Source: an uncultured Verrucomicrobiales bacterium
GTDB taxonomy: Bacteria; Verrucomicrobiota; Verrucomicrobiia; Verrucomicrobiales; DEV007
NCBI GenBank assembly: GCA_938082635.1
Contig: CALLLI010000100.1
Span: forward strand, 1 to 42,497
DNA length: 42,497 nt
Direction: 5' to 3'
Made by a program: the position numbers and the translations under genes. Each line of letters starts with the position of its first letter. Position 1 is the first letter of the stretch. Shown here in pieces: positions 7,620-24,430 of the stretch. The notes beneath the pieces were generated by a model. That model ran no database searches. It worked only from the letters and a program-made list of their open reading frames with translations, and was not told the origin of the DNA.

Positions 7620-9230
7620 TCACCGCTCAAGATTCAATCGGACAAACGCGGCAGGAGAATTCACGTCAAGAGTAATACTCGAAGTTTCCAAGCCGGAAGC
7701 CGGCCCAACAACCTTCGAAACACCTTCGTCGTCGACGCTCCAGAGCGTGAGATCAGATGACGAAGATATGTTAAAACCCTCATTTACTGGATGAGTGAAT
7801 GAGACCGCCTCCTCTGTGAAATCAAAAAGACTCAGAAAGAACACATCAGACCGAACCTCTCCGCGTTCATTGCTGACAATGACATCATAGAGTGCCACCG
7901 ATTCCATCGTCGTGTCAGAAAAGTGCATCGCTCGCTGGTTCTCAGCCTCCACAATCTCGCCATTCCGCCTCCACACCGCCTGCTCACTGCCATCCAGTGT
8001 TTGCACCGTAAAACTAGCAGCTCCTCCTTCGTTCACTGCTAGGGAGCGAGGACCATCGATGATCTCAGGCAATGGCGTCTCAATCACCCGCCCTCGACTT
8101 CGGGTGTCACGACGGAAACGCGGCCAAGGTTGCGTGTAGCCTAGTGGCGCACCACTCTCCAAGGCATACAGTTTCCCATCAAATGCCCCTACGAGAAGAT
8201 GACCATCCACCGTTAGAGCAGGCGAGGAATCAATGACGGCATCAATTTGGGTTTCCCAGACCTCTTGCCCGCCCGGCGCAAAGGCCACCACCTTACTGAC
8301 ACCAGCGCCCGCAAAGTAAGCAATGTAAACAAAGCCATTCGCATCAATGATAGGTGAACTGTAGAAGATATCCCCAAGAAAGCGAGACCAGAGCTCCAAG
8401 CCCGATTGGTCGACTGCGTAAAGCGACCCATTACGTGAAGCGAAGTAGACGATGTTCTCTGAATCGATGGCAGGACAGACATCGACCGCTTCGGGCGTAT
8501 CGAACTTCCAGCGAAGCTGCCCTTCTGCCGTCAGTGAGTAGAGCGAACCGTTGCCCGAACCAATGTAGACATTGCCCGCGTCATCGAGCGCAGGCGAACC
8601 GTAGACGCGGCTCGCCTCTTCACCAGCGCCGTCCACGGAGAAGGTCCACTGCTGCTCCCCGCTATCATTAAGACAATAGACATTGCCATTATCTGCCCCG
8701 AATAGAATTCTATCATCCACATCAACGGCAGGCGAGCTGCGCGTGTCTGCTCCGATCTCGAAGAACCAGGCCTCTTCTCCCGAGGGCATGATGCCATGAA
8801 GGAAACCCGCCGACGTCGAGACCACGATGAGCCCCTCTGAAGTGATCGCAGGTGACGCTTGAACGACACCAAACTGGCCTTCTGACTCTCCTAGTGTGGT
8901 CACCCACTTAGATTGACCGGTATCAGGATCGAGCGCCACCAAGGTGGAATCGTAGGTTCCCACATAGATCGTCCCGTCCTCTCCTATAGCCGCTGTCGCA
9001 TCGATCCAATCATTTGCAGTGTAGGTCCACATCGGCACCGCCTCACTCTCATTAGCACGAAAGGCCATCAGTGTGCTCGCATTCGATCCGATGTAGATCG
9101 TGCCATCACGACCGAGAGTCGGCGAGGCAAAGATGGGCTCTCCCATGTCGACAGACCACAAGACATCCCCATTCTCAGCACGCGCTTCTAGACTGACAAG
9201 AATAAGCAGCAAGAGAACGCGGTAAGCCAT
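7620..9230 (-). CDS. secreted PQQ/WD40-like beta-propeller protein with Ig-like domain
   Basis: This 536-residue protein begins with a signal peptide (MAYRVLLLLILVSLEARA). Residues of about 22-380 contain repeated propeller blades built on SSPAxxxxG.IYxG..xG.LYAL units, with AW/LW closing strands as in PQQ-binding-like or BamB-type propellers. From about 385 to 475 there is an Ig-like stretch (SLAVNEGGAASFTV, VWRRNGE, YDVIVSNERGEV). The C-terminal part ends in a beta-rich tail seen on many secreted verrucomicrobial proteins. There are no PQQ-dehydrogenase catalytic residues, so a binding or scaffold role is more likely than an enzyme. The gene leads a compact minus-strand unit with the ATPase and phosphoesterase, although a functional link is not obvious. 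Confidence 0.85.
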   Translation of the reverse strand: MAYRVLLLLILVSLEARAENGDVLWSVDMGEPIFASPTLGRDGTIYIGSNASTLMAFRANESEAVPMWTYTANDWIDATAAIGEDGTIYVGTYDSTLVALDPDTGQSKWVTTLGESEGQFGVVQASPAITSEGLIVVSTSAGFLHGIMPSGEEAWFFEIGADTRSSPAVDVDDRILFGADNGNVYCLNDSGEQQWTFSVDGAGEEASRVYGSPALDDAGNVYIGSGNGSLYSLTAEGQLRWKFDTPEAVDVCPAIDSENIVYFASRNGSLYAVDQSGLELWSRFLGDIFYSSPIIDANGFVYIAYFAGAGVSKVVAFAPGGQEVWETQIDAVIDSSPALTVDGHLLVGAFDGKLYALESGAPLGYTQPWPRFRRDTRSRGRVIETPLPEIIDGPRSLAVNEGGAASFTVQTLDGSEQAVWRRNGEIVEAENQRAMHFSDTTMESVALYDVIVSNERGEVRSDVFFLSLFDFTEEAVSFTHPVNEGFNISSSSDLTLWSVDDEGVSKVVGPASGLETSSITLDVNSPAAFVRLNLER

Positions 9231-9271
9231 TCACGGAGAATCGACTAGGAGTCGTCCACAGACAAGTGCGA

Positions 9272-10642
9272 TCATACCTGAGCGTCGTCTAACGGTAGAT
9301 TCACGGCGAAAGTCGTTCCAGATTCGTCTGTTTCTAAGAGTTGCAACTCGCCCCCGATCTGCCTCGCGAGTTGGGCCGAGATCACTAGCCCAATCCCAGT
9401 CCCCTGTTCTTTGCCCGACTTCTTGGGCACAAAGAGACGTTCTCGAAGCTCCGGCGAAATGCCCTCGCCGTGATCGGCAATTTCGACAACGAGCAATGCT
9501 TCATTCCGCATGCGAAAGGTGACATCGACCGCACTCCCAGGAGGGGCAGCCTCAAGCGCATTCTCCGTGAGGTTGACGAGAATGAGTAGAAGCACATTTC
9601 CCTGCCGACCTGAGAGGGTGCGACTAGGAACATCCGACAGATGCAAGGAAACGTCCCGCCGCTTGGCCTTCGAAAGTGTCTTCTCCTCGAGCAGACCGCG
9701 CACTTCATTGAGATCGTATTCATAAACGAGCTCACTCTCCTCATCGCGCATCACGTCGACGAGATGATCAATCATGCGCTGCATTTCACGGACACGCTCT
9801 TTCCCATGCTTGGCATGCGTCTCCGTCAGGGTTTCTTCAAAAAGCCCTTTCAGCGCAGCCAGAGGATTCTTCAATCCATGAATCAAATGCGCGCTGAGCG
9901 AACCCACAGCAGAGGACTTGTCCGCGAAGGCCAGTTGATGGTTCAGTTCGACCAGCCGCTGATGGGACTCTTCGATCAACCGGCGAGAACGCTCCGATTG
10001 ACGATAGGCCCAAGCAAAGAGCGTCGCAAGACACACCAACGCCATCGCCAGCAACGCCCCACTGATCGTTACCAACTGACGGTCCATCTCATGCAGATCG
10101 TTCGCGGTCTCGGCACCATCTAATAGATACCGCGCCATGGCCACCGTCCGCTCCTCGGCATCATCACGGAGCGGGACAATCACTTCGACCAAGGCAATGC
10201 CTAGCGGCTTACTCTCAGCCTCACTGTTAGGAAATAGATCTGCCCCGTAAGCCTCAGCGTGATAGCGAGTTGAGGGTTCACCTTGGAGGGCCCTCGCCAA
10301 GTCGGCTGGAGCCAAGGTGATGGTGAGTGACTCACCAATATCATCACTGATGAGGAAACCATCTTCATCAAAGAGGCTCACATCGATGAGGTTATCCATC
10401 TGCACGTCCGACAGAACGAGACTGATGAGTTCGCTCGCCTCGAAGAGGCTCCCCGTGAGCAGAAGTGTCTCGCGAGTCTCTGCTAGTTGATTTGCTGACA
10501 GGGGCTGGAGGATCTTACCATGCTGATCAATGAAGACCGTCCGAAGTTGCCCACGCACGCTCCAGGTGAGCCAGGCCACGAGACAAGTCAGCACGATTGC
10601 AGTGATGGCAAACAGCTTGAGAGCAATGCGTTTGGTAAGCAT
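9272..10642 (-). CDS. membrane sensor histidine kinase
   Basis: A 456-residue kinase with TM1 at about residues 7-28 and TM2 at about 193-213, enclosing a periplasmic sensor domain of some 165 residues. The DHp H-box is LSAHLIHGLKNPLAALKG with His about 255, and the HATPase motifs are NLTENALEA (N), DHGEGI (G1) and GTGIGLVISAQLA (G2). There is no clear HAMP, only a short coiled coil after TM2. It lies 63 bp downstream of the beta-barrel gene on the same strand. Its likely partner is the NtrC-type regulator 2.2 kb upstream, because this kinase type (periplasmic sensor, LKNPLAALKG box) commonly pairs with sigma-54 activators. That pairing is inference from position. Confidence 0.92.
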   Translation of the reverse strand: MLTKRIALKLFAITAIVLTCLVAWLTWSVRGQLRTVFIDQHGKILQPLSANQLAETRETLLLTGSLFEASELISLVLSDVQMDNLIDVSLFDEDGFLISDDIGESLTITLAPADLARALQGEPSTRYHAEAYGADLFPNSEAESKPLGIALVEVIVPLRDDAEERTVAMARYLLDGAETANDLHEMDRQLVTISGALLAMALVCLATLFAWAYRQSERSRRLIEESHQRLVELNHQLAFADKSSAVGSLSAHLIHGLKNPLAALKGLFEETLTETHAKHGKERVREMQRMIDHLVDVMRDEESELVYEYDLNEVRGLLEEKTLSKAKRRDVSLHLSDVPSRTLSGRQGNVLLLILVNLTENALEAAPPGSAVDVTFRMRNEALLVVEIADHGEGISPELRERLFVPKKSGKEQGTGIGLVISAQLARQIGGELQLLETDESGTTFAVNLPLDDAQV

Positions 10643-11988: not shown

Positions 11989-12005
11989 GAAAGATAGGTC
12001 AGAGG

Positions 12006-12647
12006 TTACTCACCGTCACGGCGGTCATTCTCCTCTTGGCGATTGCCGCGAATCTCCTCGCGAAGCTTCTTCAACTCGTCGCGCACTTGCTTATGGAGGT
12101 CGCGTTGCTCAACCTTGTGATCATCCAGCAAGGCCTTGCGCTCTTCCTTCGTTTCGGCTGCAGCGAGAGCAGTCCGCAGGGCCTCGTGGGCCGCTTTCTT
12201 CTCTTCGCGTGATTGGCTGAGAAGTTTGCGCAGATCTTTCACGCCATCTGGTGCGTTCTCAAGCTTAGCGTCACGGGCTTCCTTAGCGGCATCACGGAGA
12301 GCTTCAGCAGCCTCGCGCTGAGCGTCAATCAATGCGGCGTTCTCGTCTTTAAAGCTGGAAACGACCTCTTTGACCTGGCCACGGGTGGCATCTGCCCCGA
12401 GAGCGGCAATTTCTGCCTTGAGAGCATCACGAAGGGCTTTGCGCTCCTCGTCGTAACTTTCCTTCTGAGCTTGAATCTCGGCAGGCAGTTCTGGACGACC
12501 ATTCTTAAAGGCGTCTTTCGCTTTCTTAATCGCTTCTTCAGCGGCCTTACGAGCGGCATCGATGTCTGGGCCGCCAAGGCCTCGCTGGGCCATGGAAAGG
12601 CTGGTAAATCCAAGAACGAGAGCTGCGGTGATGGTGAGTAACTTCAT
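12006..12647 (-). CDS. periplasmic Ala/Lys/Glu-rich coiled-coil protein
   Basis: A 213-residue protein with a signal peptide (MKLLTITAALVLGFTSLSMAQ) and then an almost entirely helical, charged sequence. Long runs of heptad-like A/K/E/R/D/L occur from about residue 35 to the end, closing in a hydrophilic RxxExxDRRDGE tail. The chosen ATG at 12647 has AAGGAAG about six bases upstream; a longer frame to 12689 would bury the signal peptide. I do not recognise a named family. By position between a kinase and an NtrC-type regulator, and by its helical, extracytoplasmic, low-complexity nature, it resembles Spy/CpxP/ZraP-like envelope accessory proteins in a general way only. Its own terminator suggests an independently controlled, possibly abundant product. 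Confidence 0.75.
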   Translation of the reverse strand: MKLLTITAALVLGFTSLSMAQRGLGGPDIDAARKAAEEAIKKAKDAFKNGRPELPAEIQAQKESYDEERKALRDALKAEIAALGADATRGQVKEVVSSFKDENAALIDAQREAAEALRDAAKEARDAKLENAPDGVKDLRKLLSQSREEKKAAHEALRTALAAAETKEERKALLDDHKVEQRDLHKQVRDELKKLREEIRGNRQEENDRRDGE

Positions 12648-12751
12648 GCACACTTCCTTTGCATGAAGCGTACCGTTCCGAACAACCACCCCTTAAGCAA
12701 CTTACTACCAGGCACTTAAAGAAACGATGCCTGCCACGTTCAAAACTCAAA

Positions 12752-12769
12752 TTGGGCATATTGCCCCAA
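12752..12769 (-). terminator. probable terminator of the NtrC-type regulator gene
   Basis: On the minus strand TTGGGGCA / TGCCCAA form a hairpin followed by TTTGAGTTTT. A second inverted repeat, GGGAAATA...TATTTCCC, overlaps the regulator stop codon just before it. Confidence 0.6.
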
Positions 12770-12800
12770 CATTCACTGGGAAATAGCCCCCAGTTGGGAA

Positions 12801-14228
12801 TTATTTCCCCATGGCCTTCATGCGATAGCGAATGAAGTCCCGTTTCACACCGAGCAACCGGGCTGCCGCAGAGACATTCTCCCCAGACTGATCGAGCGCC
12901 TTCTGAATCATCCGATTCATCGCCTCGTCTAGTGAGAATCCTTCTTCAGGAAATTGCCACCCAGGTTGGAGCCAATCCTCGGGCACGCGACTGGTAGTCG
13001 GAATAGCGGCGAATGCACCAAGCGCGCTCTCCTGACGACTAGCCGGTACAAGGTGGGAGAAATCGAGCGTTTCTCCCCTGCCCCACACGAGCTGGCGCTC
13101 GAGTTCGTGCATCAGTTCGCGGACATTCCCTGGCCAAGGGTAATCTAATAGGAAGCCTTCCTGCTCCTTGGGCACTTGAGTGACACTCGCTTGATAACGT
13201 TCGGATAGCTGGCCAAGCAGGTGATTGGCCAGCGCCACGATATCATGTCCGCGATCTCGCAATGGTGGAATGTCTACGGTGAGCAGGTTGAGACGATGAT
13301 AGAGATCTTCGCGGAACTCTCCCTTCGCAATCATGTCCTGCAAATCCGCATTCGTCGCGCCAATCACGCGCACATCCACGGCAAGATCCTTGTTTCCTCC
13401 TACCCGGCGGATCTTGCGGTCCTCAATGGCCGTCAGGAGCTTCGCCTGAACTGCCGGAGACAAAGTAGGCACTTCATCGAGAAAGAGGGTGCCTTGATGA
13501 GCCGCCTCGAACAATCCCATACGTGCCTTCCGGGCGTCTGTGAAAGCGCCCCGCTCATGGCCAAAGAGTTCCGATTCTGCCAGATTGTCCGGCAAGGTCG
13601 AGCAATTCACTTCCACGATTTCCTGATCGGCCCGCGGCCCGTGGCGATGAATCCAGCGCGCAAAGGTCGACTTACCCGTACCCGTAGCCCCAGAGATCAT
13701 GACCGGAGGAAGCGCCGTCGCCAAACGCTGGTCCGCCTCCAGAATCCGCTCAAGCTGCTCCTGCACCTTGCCAAGGGAGCCCCCAAAGAAGAGTCCATCC
13801 TGGGACGGCTTGACCAGGGCCTGCCGATGCTCCAGCAAACGCACGGCCTGCTCCTGCCGTTGGCAACGCTTAAATATAATAGGGAGCTCTTCGTGATCGA
13901 AGGGCTTCGCCAGGAAATCCGCAGCTCCGAGCTGCATCGCTTCGACCGCCCGCCCCACGCCACCGTCAGAGGTCATCACCACCACCGACGTGGTTTCCGG
14001 GAAAGCCCCTTCCCTTAATAAGTCCAGGCCCTCGCCATCAGGTAGCTGAATGTCGACGAGCGCGAAATCGAAGGTCCACTCTTTAAGAGCCACGCGAGCC
14101 TTGGCCAACGTGTCCACCGCCACCACTTCGGCCCCAGCCCGCTCAAGAAAGGCCGCAGCCCGCTTCCGAAGCATCAGCTCATCTTCCAAGACTAGGATCT
14201 CCCGATCAGCAATGAGGCCGCGCTCCAT
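12801..14228 (-). CDS. sigma-54-dependent response regulator, NtrC family
   Basis: A 475-residue regulator. The receiver domain (about 8-125) keeps the acidic pair (EDE), phospho-acceptor Asp in ALVDIQLPDGEGL and Lys in FLAKPFD. The AAA sigma-54 interaction domain (about 150-390) has Walker A GATGTGKS, Walker B-type GTLFLDEV and the loop GAFTDA in place of the more usual GAFTGA. A Fis-type HTH closes the protein (SAAARLLGVKRDFIRYRMK). It should bind enhancer sites and activate sigma-54 promoters, presumably under control of the histidine kinase encoded downstream. I looked for a GG-N10-GC promoter before the coiled-coil and barrel genes and found none with correct spacing, so its targets are open. 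Confidence 0.93.
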   Translation of the reverse strand: MERGLIADREILVLEDELMLRKRAAAFLERAGAEVVAVDTLAKARVALKEWTFDFALVDIQLPDGEGLDLLREGAFPETTSVVVMTSDGGVGRAVEAMQLGAADFLAKPFDHEELPIIFKRCQRQEQAVRLLEHRQALVKPSQDGLFFGGSLGKVQEQLERILEADQRLATALPPVMISGATGTGKSTFARWIHRHGPRADQEIVEVNCSTLPDNLAESELFGHERGAFTDARKARMGLFEAAHQGTLFLDEVPTLSPAVQAKLLTAIEDRKIRRVGGNKDLAVDVRVIGATNADLQDMIAKGEFREDLYHRLNLLTVDIPPLRDRGHDIVALANHLLGQLSERYQASVTQVPKEQEGFLLDYPWPGNVRELMHELERQLVWGRGETLDFSHLVPASRQESALGAFAAIPTTSRVPEDWLQPGWQFPEEGFSLDEAMNRMIQKALDQSGENVSAAARLLGVKRDFIRYRMKAMGK

Positions 14229-14489
14229 ATAAGCAGCAGCCTAGCGCCACGAGCCGCCGCTTCAAGCCCCTCGTTTTAAGGCAATCCCTGAGCTTTTCTC
14301 AATTCTGGCTCTTTATTATAATTTTTATCATAAAAATGATTTACTTTTATAGTGATTATTGTAAAATGAATCAGCTTTGAAACACGTCTCACTTCAGATT
14401 CCAATGAACACCACAACTCCCCAAACTCCGCCTCGATCCTCTCAACATCGACGGCTGCACTCACTCAAGAGAATCACTACCTAGGTAAG
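14229..14489. other. AT-rich divergent intergenic region
   Basis: These 261 bp separate the divergent regulator and sugar transferase genes. Bases of about 14310-14370 are strongly AT-rich and contain the hairpin ATTTTTA-TCA-TAAAAAT (14321-14337). Promoters for both directions are likely here, but I could not choose a convincing -35/-10 pair. Confidence 0.5.
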
Positions 14490-15056
14490 ATGAGCCCTCT
14501 CAAGCGCGGCCTCGACATCATCGGTGCCCTCGTTGGCCTGATCTTGTCAGCACCTCTCATGATGGTCATCGGCATCCTCATCTACCGCGAATCGCCCGGC
14601 TCGGTGATCTATACCCAGAAGCGCGTTGGCCGCGGCGGTAAACTCTTCACCATCGTCAAGCTCCGCAGCATGAAGTTCGATTCTGAGACCGGTGGCCCAG
14701 GCTGGACGAATGAGAACGATCCCCGCGGTCTCAAAGTTAGCAAATTCATCCGCGCCTGGAACCTCGACGAGGTCCCTCAGTTCTGGAACGTCCTCAAAGG
14801 CGACATGAGCCTCGTCGGCCCACGTCCTGAGCGTCCTGAGCACATCGAGCGCCTCCGCGAAGAGATTCAAGGTTGGGACAAGCGTGTCGCAGTGAAGCCA
14901 GGTCTTACAGGTCTTGCCCAAGTCAACGGATGGCGCGGCGATACAGACATGAATGAGCGCCTCAACAGCGACGTGAACTAAATCCGCAACGGCTCGTTCC
15001 GCATGGATCTCGTCATCATGGCTCGCACGCTCATCAATCGCGAGAACGCTCACTAG
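14490..15056 (+). pseudogene. polyprenyl-phosphate sugar-1-phosphate transferase with in-frame TAA
   Basis: Bacterial sugar transferase (WcaJ/PglC family), initiating exopolysaccharide or glycan synthesis by moving a sugar phosphate to undecaprenyl phosphate. It has an N-terminal reentrant helix (IIGALVGLILSAPLMMVIG), YTQKRVGRGGKLFTIVKLRSM, the basic/acidic catalytic stretch LDEVPQFWNVLKGDMSLVGPRPE, and KPGLTGLAQVNGW. The frame stops at TAA 14979-14981 after NSDVN. Reading on in the same frame gives IRNGSFRMDLVIMARTLI and ends at TAG 15054-15056, exactly the expected family tail, where the stop replaces the Tyr of the conserved 'DVxYIRN' motif. So 163 residues are made unless the stop is read through. 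The full length would be 188 residues. Mutation or sequence error are both possible. Confidence 0.85.
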
Positions 15057-15128
15057 CAGAAACACTTTGCGTCAGTCGTGAGTGGCCTGGGGAGGCGCTT
15101 GCGACTGGCGCGTCGAAGAAAGAGCAGC

Positions 15129-15163
15129 AGCCCCCCCCCGTCGGATACGTCCGGCGGGGGGCT
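15129..15163 (+). terminator. terminator after the sugar transferase
   Basis: AGCCCCCC (15129-15136) pairs with GGGGGGCT (15156-15163), with extra inner pairs CCG/CGG, followed by TTTGCGTT. It lies about 70 bp after the ancestral stop at 15056. Confidence 0.85.
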
Positions 15164-15225
15164 TTGCGTTCATGGGCGGTGTTTCGAGTGTCAGAATTTC
15201 CTCAGCTGTGTGAAGATAAAGGACC

Positions 15226-15963
15226 ATGCCATCTTCCATTCGCCCTGGCACCCTCATCATCCTTCTGGTCCTTTGCGCTGTCATTGTCTGGCAACGACGA
15301 ACTATCCACGATTTGCGACAGCCTCATGACGCTGCCATCACCTCCCTTTCCCAAGGTCCCCAGGAAACACCCTCGATCGTTCCGCCACCAACGCCTAACA
15401 AAGAAGCCTCCCGCCCCACGAAGGACCAAGACTTACGCGAGCGCATCATGCATCTCGAATCTCAATTAGCCGAGTTTACCAAACCATTCGAATCAGATAT
15501 CCGCAGCGCCACAGTCGACACCGAAGTCCTCGCGGATGAAACGCTCGTCACCGGCGGCTACAAGACGCCCGATGGAAATACCAACTTTCTCTTTCTTCGA
15601 CCTGAGCGAACTGTCTTGGACGATGGGCGAGTAGCCGTAAAACTCTCCAGCACAGTGATAGCCCTATCGGATGAGCACCTCAAAGGCTCCGGTGTGGAAG
15701 ACTTGGCCACAAATGCTTCAAACACCCTACAACATGGCGAAGCCTGGAAGAACACTGAAGCTGAAAGCATCCTCACCGATCTACAAGAAACCGGGATGGT
15801 CGGCATGCCCTCAATCCTTGCCCTGCCCGGACAAGCTGCTCAGATCAACATCCAAGATGACCTGCAATACAAGGTCACCCCCGAGTTTCTCGACAACGGT
15901 AAAGACTTCCAAATTCGTCTTCGCATGGAACACCCAAACAATGTCAGCGAAACCAATGAATGA
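15226..15963 (+). CDS. membrane-anchored protein of unknown function
   Basis: A 245-residue protein with one N-terminal hydrophobic anchor (PGTLIILLVLCAVIVW) and a basic residue cluster after it, then a Pro/Ser-rich linker and a short coiled coil (about 75-100). The remaining domain contains two recognisable patterns: LVTGGYKTPDGNTNFLFL near residue 118 and MPSILALPGQAAQINI near 200. The second is reminiscent of the 'set of values, then perfect input' strand pairs found in secretin-like or extracytoplasmic verrucomicrobial proteins, but I cannot name a family. It precedes the nitroreductase by 15 bp, so the two may be cotranscribed. Confidence 0.7.
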   Translation: MPSSIRPGTLIILLVLCAVIVWQRRTIHDLRQPHDAAITSLSQGPQETPSIVPPPTPNKEASRPTKDQDLRERIMHLESQLAEFTKPFESDIRSATVDTEVLADETLVTGGYKTPDGNTNFLFLRPERTVLDDGRVAVKLSSTVIALSDEHLKGSGVEDLATNASNTLQHGEAWKNTEAESILTDLQETGMVGMPSILALPGQAAQINIQDDLQYKVTPEFLDNGKDFQIRLRMEHPNNVSETNE

Positions 15964-15978
15964 GACAACACATTCGTT

Positions 15979-16650
15979 ATGCCAAATCCCTCAAACAGTC
16001 ACCCGCTCGAAGAGTATGAAGCCCCCTCCCACAACGATCTCCTAGCACGATCAGCAGCACTTCTAGATCAATCCAAGCGCCGTCGATCAGTCCGTGAGTT
16101 TTCAGATCACCCCGTACCCCGCGAAGTCATCGAGAGTTGCCTCAAGACCGCAGGCACGGCTCCAAGCGGTGCCAATCAACAACCCTGGCACTTCGCTGCC
16201 GTTCAAGATCCAGAAACCAAGTCAACGATTCGACGCGCAGCCGAAGCCGAAGAACAAACTTTCTATGAATCCCGCGCACCTCAAGATTGGTTAGACGCCT
16301 TAGCCCCGCTCGGCACCAATGCCCAGAAACCATTCTTAGAAATCGCCCCTTGGTTGATCGTCATCTTCTTGCAACCCTGGTCGAAAACCGACGGACAAGA
16401 ACAGCAAAAACACTACTACGCGAGAGAGTCCGTGGGCATCGCCACTGGTTTCCTCATCCAGGCCATTCATCACGCCGGGCTCGCCAGCCTAACACACACG
16501 CCTAGCCCAATGGGATTCCTAAACACCTTGCTCGGCCGTCCCAGTCACGAGAAACCCTTTCTTGTCCTCGTCGTGGGTTACCCAGCAGATCAGGCAACCG
16601 TTCCTTCGATCACCAAGAAGGCGCTCGGAGAGATCGCCAGCTTTCACTAG
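15979..16650 (+). CDS. nitroreductase-family FMN oxidoreductase
   Basis: A 223-residue enzyme of the nitroreductase/flavin oxidoreductase superfamily. FMN-binding motifs are [16 protein letters not shown] near residue 35, [12 protein letters not shown] near 57, and the C-terminal half with [22 protein letters not shown] and a late VLVVGYPA strand. The ASG/Asn-Gln-Gln-Pro arrangement is like that of dehalogenase-type members (BluB/iodotyrosine deiodinase branch), but the specific substrate is not apparent. It lies between the membrane-anchored unknown and the thioredoxin-like gene. A redox link to the latter is only a guess from position. Confidence 0.88.
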
Positions 16651-16715
16651 AGGGCTAATCGCCCGAACCGATCACTTCAGCAAGAATTCGGTAAAACTAC
16701 GGAATAAGTCACGCG

Positions 16716-16744
16716 TTGACTTCGTCTCACGCCATAGCAACAAT
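16716..16744 (+). promoter_or_regulatory. possible sigma-70 promoter of the thioredoxin-like gene
   Basis: TTGACT (16716-16721) and AACAAT (16739-16744) are 17 bp apart and lie 15 bp before the ATG at 16759. The -35 is good and the -10 is weak (4 of 6). If used, the leader is very short. Confidence 0.35.
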
Positions 16745-16758
16745 CAAGCTACGCAGTC

Positions 16759-17271
16759 ATGAATAAACTCTTCACCACAAGTATTGTCGGCCTCGCTTTG
16801 GCTTTGACTTCCGTCACCGGAAATGCAGAGACCAAAGCAAAGGGAAAAGTAGCCAGCGCCGTCGCGGGAAAACTCGTGAAAGCAGAAGGCAAGAAAGTCA
16901 AAGACTACAGCGTCAATGGCTCTCCAAAGCACTACGTTCTTTATTACTCTGCTAGTTGGTGAGGTGCCTGTAAATCCGTGACGCCACAGTTAGTGGACGC
17001 CTACAAGAGCAAGAAAGGGAACGACGTTGAATTCATCCTCATGAACTACGACGACAGTCAGAAGGGCATGGACAAGTACATGGTGAAGAGCAAGATCAAC
17101 TTCCCAGGCCTCAAGAACGGGGAACGCGAGTCCAACTACCTTTCAAAGGTATTTGAAACCAAAGGGTTGCCAACCTTGGTCATCGCAGACGCCGATGGCA
17201 AAGTCATCAGCTCCGGCGTTGGGGGACCAGAAATCTCCAAAGTCATCGCGAAGATCAAGACGCTCAAGTAA
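16759..17271 (+). CDS. thioredoxin-fold protein with TGA at the first active-site Cys (candidate selenoprotein)
   Basis: Read through one in-frame TGA (16960-16962, codon 68) this is a 170-residue secreted thioredoxin-like protein. It has a signal peptide (KLFTTSIVGLALALTSVTGNA), then YVLYYSASW-(TGA)-GACKSVTPQLVDAY, a cis-Pro-type loop (KGLPTLVIADADGK) and a final helix. The family motif is WCxxC, so TGA stands exactly where the nucleophilic Cys should be and gives UxxC with the resolving Cys kept. Sequence on both sides stays in one frame and is conserved in character. A SECIS-like hairpin follows at 16984-16996. The alternative is a Cys-to-stop mutation or sequence error, which matters because two other genes nearby carry in-frame stops. 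No selenocysteine machinery is in the window. Without recoding only a 67-residue fragment is made. Confidence 0.75.
16984..16996 (+). promoter_or_regulatory. candidate bacterial SECIS hairpin
   Basis: CCAC (16984-16987) pairs with GTGG (16993-16996) around loop AGTTA. The loop starts 25 nt after the TGA and has G at its second position. The bacterial SECIS pattern as I remember it asks for an apical loop 16-37 nt after UGA with G in the first two loop bases. The stem is short (4 bp), so folding support is modest. Confidence 0.4.
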
Positions 17272-17300
17272 CAAGGCCTCTCGGCCAACAAACGCTATAT

Positions 17301-17334
17301 AACGGCCCAATCAGCATTGTTTGATTGGGCCGTT
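17301..17334 (+). terminator. terminator of the thioredoxin-like gene
   Basis: AACGGCCCAATCA (17301-17313) pairs perfectly with TGATTGGGCCGTT (17322-17334), loop 8 nt, 29 bp after the stop. The following U tract is weak (CTCGTCT). Confidence 0.8.
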
Positions 17335-17415
17335 CTCGTCTACGGCAATACCTCCACTTCAACGCGACTTCTGCTTGTCATCGCCCACACACGAGCGGAG
17401 GCTGATGGCGTAGAG

Positions 17416-18387
17416 ATGGTCTCCTCCTCCCCATACCGCTCTTCGTTGCGTCACTTGTTAGGCATTCTCGTCTTTACAAACAGTGCTATCTTATCGACTT
17501 GGGCAAAGCCCCCCGACACCACGGAGATCACCCGACTGCAAGTCTTTCTAGACAACCATCATTTCAGTCCTGGCCCGATCGATGGGCAATATGGCACCTT
17601 CACAAAGCGAGCATTAGCCTACTACAACACCCAGCGGCAACGCAAGCCATCCGATTGGAAAGCAGCCCTCAACCTAGCAGAACATCAAATCCCCATCGTC
17701 TTTGTCACTCATCAGATCACTTCACAAGAACTGCATCAGATCGGCACCATTCCGAAAGAGCTCAGCAAGCAGGCAAAGCTACGCGCTCTACCATACACCT
17801 CATTGGTTGAGTACATTGCCGAGCGCTATCACGCCGATCGCCGTTTCCTCCAGCGCCTGAACCCTCAGCTAGATCTCGATCTGCTGAAGTCTGGAGACCT
17901 CGTCGTTGTCCCCAACGTGAAGCACGTCTTTCGCATCGAAGCCGTGCCAAGATCCAGACGGTATCGCACTCAGGCAAAGCTACTCGAATGCTATATTTTC
18001 ATAGACACCAAACAACGGATGGCCGGACTCTACCGCGGCACGAAACTAGCTGCCGCTTTTCCCATCACCCATGGCCGAGCACAATTCGTTCCGAGAGGTC
18101 AGTGGAAGATTCAAACCATGCTCACAACCCCGACCTTCCGCTGGGACGAGCGCATGCTCAAGGAAGGCCAGCGCAGTGAAACCTATCACTTGCTTCCTCC
18201 AGGCCCCAACAATCCAGTAGGAATTCTTTGGGCAGGCATCAACAAGCCAGGGATCGGGCTTCACGGAACAAACTCACCAGAGACCATCGGCCGAGCCCAC
18301 AGCGCGGGCTGCATTCGCTTCGCCAACTGGGACGCGATCCGGCTACCCAAGTTCCTCTGTCCAGGATCAAAAGTGATCGTGCGGTAA
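17416..18387 (+). CDS. L,D-transpeptidase (YkuD) with peptidoglycan-binding and LysM-like segments
   Basis: A 323-residue exported protein that crosslinks or anchors to peptidoglycan. It has an N-terminal hydrophobic segment (LRHLLGILVFTNSAILSTW), then a PG-binding-1-type repeat (LQVFLDNHHFSPGPIDGQYG), a LysM-like stretch (SLVEYIAERYHADRRFLQRLNP, GDLVVVPN), and a C-terminal YkuD domain with GLHGTNSPETIG and the catalytic SAGCIRFANWDA motif (Cys nucleophile). The frame is open to 17317, but that start would overlap the upstream terminator, so the ATG at 17416 is chosen. It stands alone on its strand before lexA. Confidence 0.88.
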   Translation: MVSSSPYRSSLRHLLGILVFTNSAILSTWAKPPDTTEITRLQVFLDNHHFSPGPIDGQYGTFTKRALAYYNTQRQRKPSDWKAALNLAEHQIPIVFVTHQITSQELHQIGTIPKELSKQAKLRALPYTSLVEYIAERYHADRRFLQRLNPQLDLDLLKSGDLVVVPNVKHVFRIEAVPRSRRYRTQAKLLECYIFIDTKQRMAGLYRGTKLAAAFPITHGRAQFVPRGQWKIQTMLTTPTFRWDERMLKEGQRSETYHLLPPGPNNPVGILWAGINKPGIGLHGTNSPETIGRAHSAGCIRFANWDAIRLPKFLCPGSKVIVR

Positions 18388-18564
18388 TCCGTCCAAAGAT
18401 TCCGCCGCACCAAGCACCTCCAGAGGTGTGGAGCTCTTAAGGCTCATGTAAGTCTTAGTATAGCCTGTCGAAGTTCACCTACTGAGAAAGCAACGGCAGG
18501 GTCCTCGAATAAGGAAGAAAGGAGAGATTGGTACCGGGAGCCCATTTCTTGAGGCAGCTGAAAA

Positions 18565-19170
18565 CTAGACGTGGCGGAGCAAGCCGACCATCACGCCTTG
18601 AATAATCAGTTCCCTTGCTGGGATCAGATCAGGATACATGGAATTCTCCGCCTTGAGGAACGGACGACGGTTCTTGAGAAGGAAACGCTTCAATGTCGTC
18701 TCTCCATCGATAAGGGCGGCTACAATGTCACGCGTCCGAGGCTCGCGGTGCTCTAAGATGACACAGTCTCCCTCGACAATGTGCGCATCAATCATCGAGT
18801 CTCCACGAACCTTCAAGGCGAAGGCCTTGGCGCTCGCCGAGATCCCCAAAGACGCCGTGTCGACCGAGATACAACGGTCATGCGGCGAATGCTCCACCTC
18901 CTCCGCCATACCAGCAGCGATAGAACCCAATAGCGGGATGTCGATAATCGGACCGCGATCCAGCTCATCTGTGAAACTCACTGCCCGAGCTTTCCCAACC
19001 TGCCGTTGGATAACCCCCTTCCGCTCGAGAGCCCTCAAATGGCTGATGGCTGCCGTCTGGCTAGAGAATCCAAAGTGCTCCTGAATCTCACGCGTTGTGG
19101 GCATGATTCCGGTGGTACTATGGGCTTCCTTTAAGAAATCGTAGAGTTGTTGTTGGCGCGCGGTTAGCAT
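18565..19170 (-). CDS. lexA: LexA SOS repressor
   Basis: A 201-residue LexA, the usual family length. The N-terminal winged HTH is at about residues 1-65 (MPTTREIQEHFGFSSQTAAISHLRALERKG read in parts). The autocleavage site is Ala-Gly in SIAAGMAEE near residue 88. The catalytic Ser is in RGDSMIDAHI and the catalytic Lys in ETTLKRF. It represses SOS genes until RecA-stimulated self-cleavage. The frame extends upstream to 19218, but ATG 19170 (MLTARQQQ) is the standard N-terminus, and a LexA operator sits 8 bp upstream, which supports it and suggests autoregulation. It faces away from the TPR gene, which starts at 19266. Confidence 0.95.
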   Translation of the reverse strand: MLTARQQQLYDFLKEAHSTTGIMPTTREIQEHFGFSSQTAAISHLRALERKGVIQRQVGKARAVSFTDELDRGPIIDIPLLGSIAAGMAEEVEHSPHDRCISVDTASLGISASAKAFALKVRGDSMIDAHIVEGDCVILEHREPRTRDIVAALIDGETTLKRFLLKNRRPFLKAENSMYPDLIPARELIIQGVMVGLLRHV

Positions 19171-19178
19171 CTGAACAG

Positions 19179-19192
19179 TGTTCTCTAGAACA
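19179..19192 (-). promoter_or_regulatory. LexA operator (TGTTC-N4-GAACA)
   Basis: TGTTCTCTAGAACA on the plus strand is a perfect inverted repeat with arms TGTTC/GAACA, extended to GTGTTCT/AGAACAC. It lies 8 bp upstream of the lexA ATG. This is the operator form I recall for Verrucomicrobia. Autorepression of lexA is inferred. The divergent TPR gene is 73 bp away and could be co-regulated. Confidence 0.8.
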
Positions 19193-19265
19193 CATAGCAA
19201 ATCTCCGCTAACTGCCAAGTAGAAATTAGACTTTCTTCAACGCCAGGCCATAGCGAGCATGTGCT

Positions 19266-19919
19266 ATGACATGGCGGCCTCGCTTTCTTCTCATCTCAAG
19301 CAGCATCCTCATTCTCGCGAGCACATGCCTCGCCGATGAACCAGCCAGCTCGGCACCTTGGCAAACCACTCGTCGCCAGCTTAGCGAGCAAGCGACCGTG
19401 GCTTTTGGAAAGTCCGATTGGCAAGAGGCACGCCGGCTGTATAACAAGATCCTGGAGCATGAACCTGAGAATGCCATGATCTTGGCCAATCTCGGTGCCA
19501 TCGAATATCAGCTTGGGGACTACACCGCCAGTTGTCACTACTTAGAGAACGCTCTATCTAAGAAGGCGGATCTAGTGTCGTCTCGGGAGATGTTGGGCAT
19601 GTCCTATCATCTGAACAAGCAACCCCTCCGCGCCGTAGCCGCTCTCGCCACTGCGGTAGCCAACCAGCCAGAGTCTCCGCGCGCCCACAATCAACTAGCA
19701 GTGGTCTTGCAAGCGATGGCTTGGTACGGTGGGGCTGAGAAATCCCTCCTCAAGGCCATTCAGTTAGACCCTGAATACCGCGATGCTCATTTCAATCTCG
19801 CTCTCATCTACATCGACCACGATGCCCCCTCCTATAAACTCGCACGCAAACACTATGACAAAGCGGTTGAACTAGGCGCCACTCCGGACAAAGACCTTGA
19901 GAAGCGCCTGAAACGTTAG
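19266..19919 (+). CDS. secreted TPR protein
   Basis: A 217-residue protein with a signal peptide (RFLLISSSILILASTCLA) and about four tetratricopeptide units from residue 45 to 200: WQEARRLYNKILEHEPENAMILANLG, LGDYTASCHYLENAL, PLRAVAALATAVANQPESPRAHNQL and YGGAEKSLLKAIQLDPEYRDAHFNLALIY cover the helices in order. It is probably a periplasmic scaffold for protein-protein contacts. The stop is two bases from the stop of the convergent methyltransferase. No partner is evident. Divergence from lexA raises the possibility of shared control. Confidence 0.8.
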   Translation: MTWRPRFLLISSSILILASTCLADEPASSAPWQTTRRQLSEQATVAFGKSDWQEARRLYNKILEHEPENAMILANLGAIEYQLGDYTASCHYLENALSKKADLVSSREMLGMSYHLNKQPLRAVAALATAVANQPESPRAHNQLAVVLQAMAWYGGAEKSLLKAIQLDPEYRDAHFNLALIYIDHDAPSYKLARKHYDKAVELGATPDKDLEKRLKR

Positions 19920-19921
19920 AT

Positions 19922-20680
19922 CTAGAAGCGCTTCCAGAGACTCCCCTCAGCCATCGTCCACTGAAACTTACGCGCCGTTTCGCGAATCAGCATGGGTAGA
20001 TTCTGTCGGCGCACGAGTTCGAAATGTGGCTGGAGAGATTTCTCTAACACATCAATCGTGACGACTGGACGATCGCCATCGACATAGCCACCTAACCAAC
20101 GATCTCTTGGCGTGAATTCATCAAGCCAGGTGTAGGGGCTCGTGATGACAAGCTGCCCTTCTGAACGGACAAGGCCAGGGAGAAGCTCTAAACATCGAAC
20201 CGGCTCCGGAAGGCGGCAGATCAGATTGGCAAGCAAGGCCACGTCAAACTGCCCCACCGTCTCGGGGACATCCATGGCATCTCCTTGAAGAAAATTCACC
20301 CGCTCCGGGCGCGCCCCCTCAGGCAAGCGAGCCACCAGCGGAGTCGTCATCGCGCCCTCATCGATACGATCATAAGCGAGCTGACCTTTGGCCGCCATCG
20401 ATTGAGAGGCCTCAACAAACGCATGGGAGAAATCAATCCCAACGACCTCACCACACTTCTCTGACAGTGTAAAACTAGACCGCCCGACAGCACAACCGAG
20501 GTCCAAAGCACGAGGACTCTCTGGTAGTGTCTCGAAGTCCACCATCTCCGTCACCGCCCGGACAGCGAAATCCAGAGCACTATGAGGCGCCTCTTCATAA
20601 GGAAGGATCTCATCAGGTGCACCGTAGTGGAAGAGTAGGTACTGACTGATCAACGTCGGCGTTTCGTAGGGATTGCTCAT
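19922..20680 (-). CDS. ovothiol-type 4-mercaptohistidine N1-methyltransferase (OvoA C-terminal-domain-like)
   Basis: A 252-residue SAM-dependent methyltransferase. It begins NPYETPTLISQYLLFHYG, has the SAM glycine loop ALDLGCAVGRSSF, then VGIDFSHAF, LQGDAMDVP, ANLICRLPEP, SPYTWLDEFT and finally IRETARKFQWTMAEGSLWKR. These blocks match, from memory, the C-terminal methyltransferase part of OvoA, which completes ovothiol A by N-methylating 4-mercaptohistidine (5-thiohistidine). Here it is encoded alone, without the sulfoxide synthase domain. Ovothiols are antioxidants. The sulfur-inserting partner is not in the window. No signal peptide is present. Confidence 0.82.
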   Translation of the reverse strand: MSNPYETPTLISQYLLFHYGAPDEILPYEEAPHSALDFAVRAVTEMVDFETLPESPRALDLGCAVGRSSFTLSEKCGEVVGIDFSHAFVEASQSMAAKGQLAYDRIDEGAMTTPLVARLPEGARPERVNFLQGDAMDVPETVGQFDVALLANLICRLPEPVRCLELLPGLVRSEGQLVITSPYTWLDEFTPRDRWLGGYVDGDRPVVTIDVLEKSLQPHFELVRRQNLPMLIRETARKFQWTMAEGSLWKRF

Positions 20681-20872
20681 AAGCCCGGACCTTTAGAGGC
20701 CCTCCGACCTATACGCAATGGCTCCCTAAGCATCAAGAAGGAGAACTCCGGCTCAAAACACGACGCAAACAGAAGAATTCACAGCTCACCCAGAAGATTC
20801 CTCCAATCTCATTATAATTCCCATATAAATTTGATTCTCTATATGCTAACCTCGTTCGAATTCCTGCCACCG

Positions 20873-21652
20873 ATGAACCGCATCCTACTTTACGAAACCG
20901 ACAGCAGTGAGGCTGTGCACCTCTCCCAGTTTCTCCAGTCCGCTGGCTACGCCGTTGCCACGGTGACCACCGCTCGCCAGGCGACTAGCTTTGCTCGAGA
21001 TTACGAATTTGAACTCTTCCTAATCAACCTCGCCGATCCAGGTGAGACTGGCTACACCACGATAGCTGAGATCAAGTGTCGCCCCCAACCAACGGATGTA
21101 GGTGTCATCGGATTCGTCCCACAAGCCAGCATGCGGACTGCTGCGGAAGAAGCCGGATGCGACTCAATTCTGGCAAGACCGTTCAACAATGAGCATGTGT
21201 TAAGAAAGGTCTCGGAACTGCTTGAGCAGTCTTCCAAGTCGATTAAGTTCATTCATCAAGCCATGGACACCAACACCCCCAGCTCTCAGACCACGTTCGC
21301 TTCCCTAGCAGATTCACTCTGCCTCGGTGTCGAATGGCTCAAAGGACGCCTGTCCGAACTAGGAGAACAGGGTCCAATCGCGATTGAAAGCATGGAAGAC
21401 GCCTCCTCGTCACTCCGCGTCCGCTTAGAAGCGGACAAGGTGACTCCAGGCCATCATCTTCCTGACTCCGTGCGTGACCGCCAAGTCCGCCACGACTTTC
21501 GAAATCTATTAGCAGCAGTCAATGGCTTCGCTCAAATTCTACTCCTCGAGGACTACTTACCCCAGGATATCGAAGCAAGATTGCGGGTCATCAAGAAAGA
21601 GTCTCGCGATTTCTGTAACATGCTAGACAGCATTCGAGAGTCGGCTGCCTAA
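20873..21652 (+). CDS. pseudo-receiver plus DHp histidine-phosphotransfer-like protein
   Basis: This 259-residue protein joins a receiver-like domain (about 1-118) to a dimerisation/His domain near the C-terminus (RHDFRNLLAAVNGFAQIL, His near residue 207). No HATPase domain follows. The receiver has lost key residues: the phospho-Asp position reads N (LFLINLADPGETG) and the conserved Lys is R (LARPF). So the receiver is unlikely to be phosphorylated, while the DHp His could still pass a phosphate, as in ChpT/Spo0B-like phosphotransferases, or act as a dimer module. The chosen ATG at 20873 begins MNRILLYETD, which is the domain start. Upstream ATG codons (20831, 20843) lie in AT-rich DNA. The partner kinase is unknown. 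Confidence 0.75.
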   Translation: MNRILLYETDSSEAVHLSQFLQSAGYAVATVTTARQATSFARDYEFELFLINLADPGETGYTTIAEIKCRPQPTDVGVIGFVPQASMRTAAEEAGCDSILARPFNNEHVLRKVSELLEQSSKSIKFIHQAMDTNTPSSQTTFASLADSLCLGVEWLKGRLSELGEQGPIAIESMEDASSSLRVRLEADKVTPGHHLPDSVRDRQVRHDFRNLLAAVNGFAQILLLEDYLPQDIEARLRVIKKESRDFCNMLDSIRESAA

Positions 21653-21761
21653 GCTAGATAGGAACCAACTAGCAAAGCATTAATACCCATGGAGCAGCGG
21701 GCCGCTACACGATCTACTCAAAGCGAGGAAGACTCGTCGCTTGACCGGCCCAAATTTCCGC

Positions 21762-22169
21762 ATGACGTTCTTCGCGTTCATGCTTCGCGTCGCTAAAGCA
21801 CTCGTCACCATACTCTGCATCGTCTCGTTGCTCGATCTCTCGTGGATGGGCCTTCAAGTGTATGCTTGGGCGAAGATGGTTCAGGACCGACCTACTGACA
21901 TCGGTTGGACTCAAGCCATTGCCGATGCTATCAGCGGCGACGATCCCTGCAAGGTGTGCCTTTACATCCAAAGCGCGCAAGGGAAAGAGCAGGACAACCA
22001 ACGGGCCACCAACGTGAAACAATCGTTGCGCCAGCCTATGAGCCTCTGCACCGGAATCAGCGTGCAACCGGCAACCATCATCGGGACCGTGAACCATTTC
22101 CATCGCGAAGAGAGTCGCTTACTTCGAAGAGAACGCCCGCCTGTGCCGCCACCGAAGCAGCTAGGCTGA
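21762..22169 (+). CDS. small membrane protein with a CxxC pair
   Basis: About 135 residues with one N-terminal membrane segment (FMLRVAKALVTILCIVSLL), then a predicted extracytoplasmic stretch carrying DDPCKVC, and a basic Pro/Arg tail (RRERPPVPPPKQLG). The frame opens at a TTG at 21741, but ATG 21762 starts the membrane segment. I do not recognise a named family. Small proteins with a Cys-pair near 'HPC.LC' sit upstream of outer-membrane transporter-like proteins in other Verrucomicrobiota as I remember, and here one follows 109 bp downstream. A metal or redox role is only suggested by the CxxC. Confidence 0.55.
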   Translation: MTFFAFMLRVAKALVTILCIVSLLDLSWMGLQVYAWAKMVQDRPTDIGWTQAIADAISGDDPCKVCLYIQSAQGKEQDNQRATNVKQSLRQPMSLCTGISVQPATIIGTVNHFHREESRLLRRERPPVPPPKQLG

Positions 22170-22278
22170 TTGGCCCCATTTGCGCTACACCAACGTCGGG
22201 TGGTGCGCGTTCAACAACCTTCGAACCGAGACCTCTAGCACGATGCTAGTGACGTCTCTTCAACCAATCTTTAGATCC

Positions 22279-23340
22279 ATGTACTCTCGTACCAACACAA
22301 TCCTATCATTCATCCTCCTATCCACATCTATCACCTTTGCTGGCGAACCTCAGCCCCTTCAGCTCACGAACGATCATCCTGTCGATCTCTGGTCCTCGGC
22401 CCGTCCAGACGGCCATGCCCCCATTGGGGTGATGGGCGATCATGGTCACGGCAAGGGAGAATGGATGCTCTCCTACCGCTACATGAATATGGCGATGGAG
22501 CAGAACTACGATGGCAGTTCCCGCGTCAGTGACGCAGAAATCCTCTCACCTACCGGCGGGAACTACCGTGTCGTCCCCCAGTGGATGGACATGGAAATGC
22601 ACATGTTCGGGCTCATGTACAGCCCCATAGACCACCTCACCATGATGCTCATGATCCCTTACGCGAGTAAGGAAATGGGCCACCTCCGTCGCGACGGTGT
22701 GGAGTTCATTACGAAATCAGAAGGCTGGGGAGATCTCAAACTCGCGGGCATCTACGAACTTCATCACGGACATCGCTCCACATGGCTCCTCAACCTCGGA
22801 CTTAGCTTGCCGACCGGCTCTACGAGTGAAGAGGACTTCATTCCAGGGCCAGGCGAGACACGCCTCCCCTATCCAATGCAGATCGGATCTGGCACCTGGG
22901 ACCTCTTACCCGGCATCACTTACCTTGGACAAGCCGACACGTGATCATGGGGCGCTCAGCTCTCTGGAGTCATTCGGTTAGGCGAGAACGACGAAGGCTA
23001 CACACTTGGGAACGTCGGCCAACTCACCACGTGGGGAGCCTACAAGTGGAATGACCATGTGAGCACCTCACTGAGAGTCACCGGTAAGGCCTGGGGAGAC
23101 ATTGATGGCAGAGACGAAGACCTTCGCCTCGCACCAAACGTTGTGCCAACGGCAGACCCAAGACGACGCGGTGGCGAGGAAATCGATCTCTCCCTCGGTG
23201 TTAATGTAAAGATGCCAGGCAACTTCCTCAACGGCCAGCGAATCGCCGCTGAGATCGGTGTGCCAGTCTACCGTTCACTCGATGGCCCTCAATTGAGCAC
23301 CGATTGGTTCTTCAATCTGGGATGGCAGTGGTCGTTCTAG
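22279..23340 (+). pseudogene. outer-membrane transporter-like beta-barrel protein with in-frame TGA
   Basis: Signal peptide (MYSRTNTILSFILLSTSITFA), then a Met/His-rich beginning (GVMGDHGHGKGEWMLSYRYMNMAM) and repeated amphipathic strands (MHMFGLMYSPIDHLTMMLMIPYAS, WLLNLGLSLPTGS), ending in a C-terminal aromatic WQWSF as barrels do. The frame is cut by TGA at 22942-22944 (codon 222) but continues in frame with SWGAQLSGVIRLGEN to 23340. TGA replaces what is probably a Trp codon (TGG), since DTWSWGAQ-like strands would be expected. The full length would be 353 residues. The Met/His-rich start may hint at copper or another metal. A single-base mutation or sequence error is the simplest reading. 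Confidence 0.8.
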
Positions 23341-23363
23341 ACTGAGCCGAACAAACGTTCACT

Positions 23364-23389
23364 GCGTTTGGGGCCACTTCTCCAAACGC
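23364..23389 (+). terminator. hairpin between convergent genes
   Basis: GCGTTTGG (23364-23371) pairs with CCAAACGC (23382-23389), loop 10 nt, 23 bp after the outer-membrane protein stop. No U tract follows, so it may be an RNA end or a plain inverted repeat. Confidence 0.5.
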
Positions 23390-23443
23390 GGTGGGAGCGG
23401 CTTCGCCAACGGCATACCGCGCAACACAGAAATCCTCAAAAAC

Positions 23444-23677
23444 CTACTTCACTGGCGTCACCACAATGCTCACATCCGCCTGATTACTGGCGCGGAGCGG
23501 TTGCTCGTTTACGCCTTCAGTAGGAGCCTCAGGGCCAGCTTCTGCTTCTGTCACCGAACCTATCACCGATCCAGGAAGCTGTAGGACTGAGCGAAGCAAA
23601 CCGCCAACGACTGCACAGCTACTCAGGCAAGTAAGCGAGAACGCTGCAAAGAAGAGGATAAGGGAACGTTTGATCAT
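23444..23677 (-). CDS. small lipoprotein
   Basis: A 77-residue protein. The N-terminus RSLILFFAAFSLTCLSSC is a lipoprotein signal with lipobox LSSC, so Cys 21 is the lipidation site. The remainder is short, with a Pro/Glu-rich middle and no recognisable domain. It lies between the hairpin and the zinc protease on the same strand as the latter. Function unknown. Confidence 0.6.
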   Translation of the reverse strand: MIKRSLILFFAAFSLTCLSSCAVVGGLLRSVLQLPGSVIGSVTEAEAGPEAPTEGVNEQPLRASNQADVSIVVTPVK

Positions 23678-23740
23678 AATGAATGTAGCGAAAAGAAGGA
23701 TGAGCCACTCGGCAAGAATAAAGCGCTAAAATATTAATTA

Positions 23741-24430
23741 TTATCGCCTCTGAGACTTCAGATAGAGACTGACAAAGTAAAGAAGTTGCCCAATGGAAGC
23801 CAGAGCGCCAACGGTGTAGGTCATAGCCGCCCAGAAGAGAGCCTTCTTAGCTTTGCCATGGTCCTCTCCTTGCGTGACACCGCTCGACTCCATCCACTGG
23901 AGAGCACGAGAACTCGCATTGAACTCGACCGGCAAAGTAATGATGGAGAATAGCGTGGTCACGGCAAACAGAACGATGCCGACTAACAACACCATCGTAT
24001 TCCCGTAAGCGGCCATGGCAAGGCCAGCCATAAGAATCCACTGATTCACCGAGCCACTCATCTTAACGAGCGGAACGATCGCAGAACGGAACTTGAGGAA
24101 GGGATAGGAATTCGCATGCTGGATAGCATGCCCACACTCGTGAGCCGCCACGGCAGCTGCCGCCACATTGTTCTGAGAGAAGACAACCTCGCTTAAATTG
24201 ACAGTCTTGTTTACAGGATTGTAGTGATCGGTGAGTTGACCACCCACGGCAGTCACTTTGACATCTGTCAGACCCGCTTCGTTTAACATCTTGTGGGCCA
24301 CATCTCGCCCGGAGACTGGCAAAGGCACCTGCGAGAATTCGGTAAACCGTTTCTGAAGCATCATGCTCGCAAGGCGACTTGCGCCCATGGTGGCGACCGT
24401 GATAATGGTGTAGACTGGATCGAAGTACAT
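23741..24430 (-). CDS. YugP-type membrane zinc metallopeptidase
   Basis: A 229-residue protein with the zincin signature AAHECGHAIQHA (HExxH) near residue 117, and a downstream Glu in a helix (PVEFNASSRAL) as third-ligand candidate. Membrane segments are found at about residues 5-20, 145-190 and near the C-terminus (WAAMTYTVGALASIGQLLYF). Layout and length fit the neutral zinc metallopeptidase family of B. subtilis YugP. The frame extends to 24478, but ATG 24430 (MYFDPVYTIITV) matches the family start. The physiological substrate is unknown. Confidence 0.88.
   Translation of the reverse strand: MYFDPVYTIITVATMGASRLASMMLQKRFTEFSQVPLPVSGRDVAHKMLNEAGLTDVKVTAVGGQLTDHYNPVNKTVNLSEVVFSQNNVAAAAVAAHECGHAIQHANSYPFLKFRSAIVPLVKMSGSVNQWILMAGLAMAAYGNTMVLLVGIVLFAVTTLFSIITLPVEFNASSRALQWMESSGVTQGEDHGKAKKALFWAAMTYTVGALASIGQLLYFVSLYLKSQRR

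Follow-up and report, generated by a model that had tools for sequence, protein, structure and literature searches.

A probable thioredoxin-fold selenoprotein with a conserved in-frame TGA and a covarying SECIS-like hairpin in an uncultured Verrucomicrobiales bacterium

We report that a gene at positions 16759-17271 (forward strand) of a 42,497-nucleotide stretch of DNA from an uncultured Verrucomicrobiales bacterium, hereafter the window, is very probably a real selenoprotein gene. The product would be a thiol:disulfide oxidoreductase with a thioredoxin fold, a member of the tryparedoxin/TlpA-like group that is probably exported and carries selenocysteine (Sec) at residue 68, and we put the probability of this reading at roughly 94%. 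A UxxC selenoprotein had been proposed at this site in a preliminary description made from the letters of the window, and that proposal now gains support from the TGA carried by relatives, from a hairpin that covaries among them and from the presence of SelA, SelB and SelD in the genome. Standard gene calling would cut this gene short or divide it in two; read with Sec it would be an intact selenoprotein gene, and along with its SECIS element it would mark selenium use in a family of the Verrucomicrobiales.

The gene forms a single open frame from an ATG at 16759 through the TGA at 16960-16962 (codon 68) to a TAA at 17269-17271. Read through, the product has 170 residues with Sec68, and U68-G-A-C71 constitutes a UxxC motif in which Cys71 (codon 16969-16971) would be the resolving residue. 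Translation bears out what had been read from the letters, namely YYSASW-TGA-GACK with the TGA at the first Cys of a WCxxC motif and one frame common to both sides. The Pfam domain Thioredoxin_8 (PF13905) matches on both sides of the TGA (58.1 bits, E 1.1e-15, cut-off 27), and further matches of the read-through protein, to Thioredoxin (43.4 bits) and AhpC-TSA (41.6 bits), likewise cross it. The residues flanking the TGA (W67, G69 and C71) are invariant in 16 aligned proteins, as is Pro138 (codon 17170-17172), which we take to occupy the cis-Pro loop position of the thioredoxin fold. A hydrophobic stretch of about residues 1-23 (16759-16827) resembles a signal peptide. The gene had been described as otherwise intact, with a proline loop and its own perfect terminator. 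The proline loop stands and the inverted repeat 30 nt past the stop codon is indeed perfect (13 + 13 nt, 17301-17313 and 17322-17334, forward strand), but no T-run follows it and a terminator scan made no call at 17301-17334, so that “perfect terminator” is too strong a label for what is a possible terminator. Upstream, a weak sigma-70-like promoter match on the same strand (16716-16744, 9 of 12 positions; one found against 0.5 in shuffles) is no evidence of function.

The host assembly amounts to 6.33 Mb in 472 contigs and is 88.65% complete; the window corresponds to one entire contig of it (C100). Nine of the 31 ORFs listed for the window terminate in TGA; UGA is therefore an ordinary stop in this host, and a reassigned genetic code was rejected on this ground.

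At codon 68 the close relatives carry TGA and not TGC or TGT. The nearest locus, L014 in the metagenome-assembled genome ANT-87 (an “Akkermansiaceae bacterium”, a family that the NCBI taxonomy places within the order Verrucomicrobiales), is about 91% identical with TGA at the same codon, and all three other genomes of the host's genus that were searched (G050, G051 and G052, at 73, 73 and 55% identity) have one TGA each, again at codon 68; the loci sharing the TGA codon are L014 and L063-L065. The search for relatives covered 74 genomes of the host's family and then 387 genomes of the phylum. Among the matches listed there are at least 44 TGA loci, 43 in genomes of the host's family and one in ANT-87, and the phylum search added at least five more from three genomes of a neighboring family of the same order (f2). 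This gives a total of at least 49 among the matches listed, to which further members may be added; a further TGA locus, L128, scored 55.8 bits with the hairpin model described below and was left out of the 49, its gene being cut by a contig end. At 37 homologous loci the aligned codon is TGC or TGT, including a paralogue in the host itself (L010, 40% identical), so that the catalytic Cys of these homologues corresponds to the position of the in-frame UGA in the window gene. This Cys count leaves out L167, which has Ser, and L175, a spurious match; moreover, seven of the 20 loci of one set and 14 of L170-L203 gave no pattern match.

The codons beyond the TGA evolve as coding sequence. Over this part the dN/dS is 0.092 against ANT-87, and 0.188, 0.177 and 0.280 against G050, G051 and G052, the last three values being rough because dS exceeds 1 in each; these low ratios indicate that the region past the stop is under purifying selection as protein. 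The ANT-87 locus has only 625 bp in common with window positions 12001-24000 (90.1% identity), made up of the gene plus roughly 100 bases of upstream sequence, and the rest of the 6.5-kb locus has no match to that part of the window, which places the gene in a different neighborhood in ANT-87. A plasmid search returned four records, every one below 60% identity.

Directly downstream of the TGA lies a SECIS-like hairpin (16982-16999, forward strand). The element CCAC-AGTTA-GTGG at 16984-16996 was confirmed as described earlier, with 25 nt from the TGA to the first loop base and G as the second; G in a small apical loop is named as a common SECIS feature in the sections available of a Sargasso Sea survey (PMC1088965). 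The full stem pairs 16982-16987 with 16993-16999, with A16997 bulged, around the loop AGTTA at 16988-16992. When the T of the TGA is numbered 1, positions 23-28 pair with 34-39 across a five-base loop, and 44 TGA loci align without gaps from the TGA onward over the stretch used. Covariation was measured in 27 of these 44 rows, near-copies having been left out by hand. Paired cells make up 91.4% of 162, as compared to 67.1% in shuffles, two-sided changes occupy 38 cells against 14.5, and covariation scores 0.598 against 0.194, with a maximum of 0.248 in slid controls. The number of pairs with a two-sided change does not stand out in the same 27 rows (5 against 4.1, with 47 of 500 shuffles as high), nor does that of further pair types (8 against 7.0, 162 of 500). 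RNAalifold recovers five of the six family pairs unaided, and the pair 25-37, for instance, is seen as C-G, A-U, G-C and U-G. The hairpin is thus kept and covarying across relatives.

At the apex, C28, A29, G30, T32 and G34 are identical in all 44 of these loci, and the apex CAGxTxG occurs in 49 of 49 TGA loci, each with at least four of the six pairs (six pairs in 35 loci, five in 10 and four in four, the window being among these last). Since the loci were gathered for holding TGA, this figure bears on the hairpin and not on the codon. The 37 Cys loci have at most four pairs, a number that five of them reach; the apex is present in three, and in no case together with four pairs. That the stem is only 4 bp had been raised as a worry, which is eased in part: of the six family pairs the window forms the four nearest the apex, the bulged A16997 permits two more, and 45 of the 49 TGA loci have five or six of the six. 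For the window hairpin folded singly, RNAfold favors another structure and z is -0.11, not beyond shuffles. Single-sequence folding was accordingly dropped as SECIS evidence, and the case for the hairpin is comparative.

A covariance model built from the 27 rows finds the window site (16960-17007) at 53.4 bits, an in-sample score, with the next match at 8.8 bits (E 0.65). Eight TGA loci outside the model, some of them close to model rows, receive 43.1-56.3 bits. Two Cys homologues, L191 (577-624) and L198 (2236-2283, reverse strand), score 33.3 and 31.1 bits, and the remaining non-TGA loci scored reach at most 17.7 bits. The scores of L191 and L198 may reflect SECIS remnants or mere coding similarity; because coding similarity is rewarded too, the model is no clean SECIS detector.

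The proteins required for Sec insertion are all present in the host genome: SelA (412 bits, above cut-off), SelB (665 aa, carrying SelB-wing_2 and SelB-wing_3 domains; 259 bits, cut-off 242.25) and SelD (262.8 bits, above cut-off). SelD lies behind a pyridine-nucleotide oxidoreductase domain (Pyr_redox_2) in one 751-aa ORF on another contig of the assembly (C160; L060:1393-3648, reverse strand). The covariance model for tRNA-Sec (RF01852) found no tRNA-Sec in the 88.65%-complete host assembly, its seven sub-cut-off matches being Leu, Ser, Gly and Glu tRNAs. The complete host contigs bearing selA, selB and selD hold only tRNA-Gly and tRNA-Cys, with no tRNA-Sec. A BLAST comparison of selC and its flanks from G050 and ANT-87 with the host assembly gave no significant match, a result weakened by the fact that these two selC genes are themselves only 76% identical.

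Relatives do possess the tRNA. Matches of 68.5, 65.1 and 55 bits were found in G050, G052 and ANT-87 and were called tRNA-SeC by ARAGORN; in G051 there was none above cut-off among the matches listed. The selC of ANT-87 sits two bases from a contig end, and the assembly therefore broke there at least once. Across the family, again among the matches listed, a tRNA-Sec of at least 55 bits occurs in 27 of the 39 genomes for which a TGA gene is listed and in nine of the 35 others (Fisher p 2.2e-4), although the 55-bit line was chosen after seeing the scores. Matches scoring around 47-52 bits span 81-85 nt. ARAGORN confirmation covered the best 20 tRNA-Sec matches. Three genomes that are each at least 95% complete and have the TGA gene (G028, G030 and G057) show no tRNA-Sec of at least 55 bits among the matches listed, in a family search with tighter filters and no more than 49 candidates scored per genome. 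In one genome two tRNA-Sec matches of 95 nt each (G002:C73:119883-119977 and 120585-120679; 55.0 and 55.4 bits) lie about 700 bases apart, possibly a duplicated selC.

In-frame TGAs are also found where Sec is not indicated. The preliminary description had spoken of two other genes in the window with single in-frame stops, one of which we placed, at 22180-23340 (forward strand). In that gene, a TGA at 22942-22944 stands in QADT-TGA-SWGAQ, and the Phenol_MetA_deg match across it is weak (22.3 bits against a cut-off of 22). The hairpin model has no match there up to E 1; a second selenoprotein in the window was accordingly dropped as a candidate, and a nonsense mutation or an error is the likelier explanation of this TGA than Sec. 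Likewise, at the locus of a relative in a genome of the neighboring family (L203; G294:C1, about 8936-9298) a TGA replaces the Trp before CGPC, no hairpin-model match is present, and the TGA looks like a plain nonsense codon. Single in-frame TGAs therefore do occur without Sec, but both of these lack the signs of it.

Such cases lend some color to the possibility that the window gene is simply broken or misassembled, its TGA being a nonsense mutation or sequencing error in a Cys-type gene, as do the fragmentation of the host assembly (472 contigs, 88.65% complete) and the tRNA-Sec that was not found in it. An accident of this kind would nonetheless have to be shared by G050, G051, G052 and ANT-87, which were assembled separately and have the same TGA, and it fits poorly with purifying selection on the codons past the TGA; we hold it to be very unlikely. 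Alternatively, the host strain might have lost selC and might now decode UGA without Sec, by near-cognate read-through or as Cys or another residue. The selC gene was indeed not found in the host assembly, but selA, selB and selD are retained and so are the hairpin and its apex, while an estimated 11% or so of the host genome is missing and the selC of ANT-87 lies at the very edge of a contig, so that we give this explanation even less credit. It might also be argued that the locus holds two genes, one for a peptide of 67 residues and one whose product begins at GTG 16978, since the ORF list includes a 97-aa ORF at 16978-17271. Against this, the Pfam domain crosses the TGA, W67, G69 and C71 on its two sides are invariant in the 16 aligned proteins, GTG 16978 lies just ahead of the hairpin stem, and the 67-residue product would be without the active-site Cys pair; of the alternatives considered we find this one the hardest to credit.

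If the gene is read as a selenoprotein gene, its expression can be pictured as follows. SelA would make Sec-tRNA using selenophosphate from SelD; SelB with the Sec-tRNA would bind the hairpin at 16982-16999 during translation, just downstream of the UGA; and Sec would be inserted there in place of termination. The AlphaFold2 model (28 rows) has a mean pLDDT of 77.7, exceeding 90 around residues 61-80, with residues 1-29 of low confidence. For this model Foldseek ranks ResA, StoA and tryparedoxin II highest (E 9e-10 to 6e-9), and by sequence the best PDB matches are a filarial-worm thioredoxin (2.1e-13) and then tryparedoxin II. Given the signal-like start and the lipobox-like starts, read by eye, in three relatives (L067, L079 and L086), the protein is probably exported. 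From the fold matches and this probable export we infer an extracytoplasmic disulfide reductase or isomerase, in which Sec would attack and Cys71 resolve. After export, the U68 selenolate would attack a disulfide or similar oxidized substrate, C71 would resolve the mixed bond, and the oxidized U68/C71 pair would be re-reduced by a partner.

Tryparedoxins work in the trypanosomatid cytosol with trypanothione. They resemble the window protein in fold and in the position of WCxxC (PDB 1fg4 and 1o81; tryparedoxin II, phmmer 1.6e-12 to 2e-12, Foldseek 5.8e-9), but have Cys where the window gene has Sec, and the signal-like start belongs to the window gene. With the ResA/TlpA-type oxidoreductases, which include the best fold match (ResA, 1st9, E 9.2e-10), the protein has in common a suggested extracytoplasmic role; ResA, however, uses Cys, and the NCBIfam ResA model (NF002854) gives 47.8 bits, short of its cut-off of 170. 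A Sec-containing thioredoxin (PF00085) would likewise combine UxxC with the thioredoxin fold, but the window protein is longer and probably exported, and it does not reach the NCBIfam thioredoxin cut-off (TIGR01068, 40.5 bits against 96.8).

The nearest published kind, judged by description, is the UxxC “thiol-disulfide isomerase-like” (Thioredoxin_8) selenoprotein, whose reference sequence is MAK15852.1. In the parts available of each source, this family is listed under pfam13905 in 2022 (PMC9312934) and with cd02966 in 2026 (PMC13188914), and a family of the same name appears with four sequences in the Sargasso Sea survey (PMC1088965). As far as those parts describe it, it has in common with the window gene Thioredoxin_8, a UxxC motif with Sec first and a bacterial SECIS directly after the UGA. 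The members described here come from Verrucomicrobiota, whereas the string “verrucomicrob” is absent from the main text of PMC13188914 and PMC9312934. The available sections of other papers concern selenoproteins in Planctomycetes (PMC4807772) and Sec/Cys exchange in bacteria (PMC1794560), and in those of a paper on tRNA-Sec (PMC5330540) the phylum name has no match. Among the openly licensed PMC articles listed, judged by title and the start of the abstract, we found no account of this family in the Verrucomicrobiales.

In this lineage Sec looks fixed. A tree built on 86 domains explains the 49 Sec rows with a minimum of two state changes, as compared to 28.1 in shuffles, and divides them between one clade of 24 rows that includes the window (support 100/99) and another of 25 rows (94/84), with none of the 37 Cys rows inside either. 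A single origin of Sec in both clades may still apply, as 16% of bootstrap trees show one state change. We tentatively propose, at a little less than even odds, that one family of the Verrucomicrobiales locked Sec into a probably exported thioredoxin-like lineage, either by two Cys-to-Sec conversions or by one with early losses. If so, these bacteria would depend on selenium for their redox work outside the cytoplasm. The two all-Sec clades, together with the Cys paralogue L010 in one and the same genome, provide a natural setting in which to ask what maintains Sec in a thioredoxin-like protein that is probably exported. An extra N-terminal region of RTW type is present in 20 of the 49 TGA rows, including the SHD1-like cases of the second clade. 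In one genome (G016:C270) two TGA-type thioredoxin-like genes stand in tandem (L132:502 and 1472), with the hairpin present in both.
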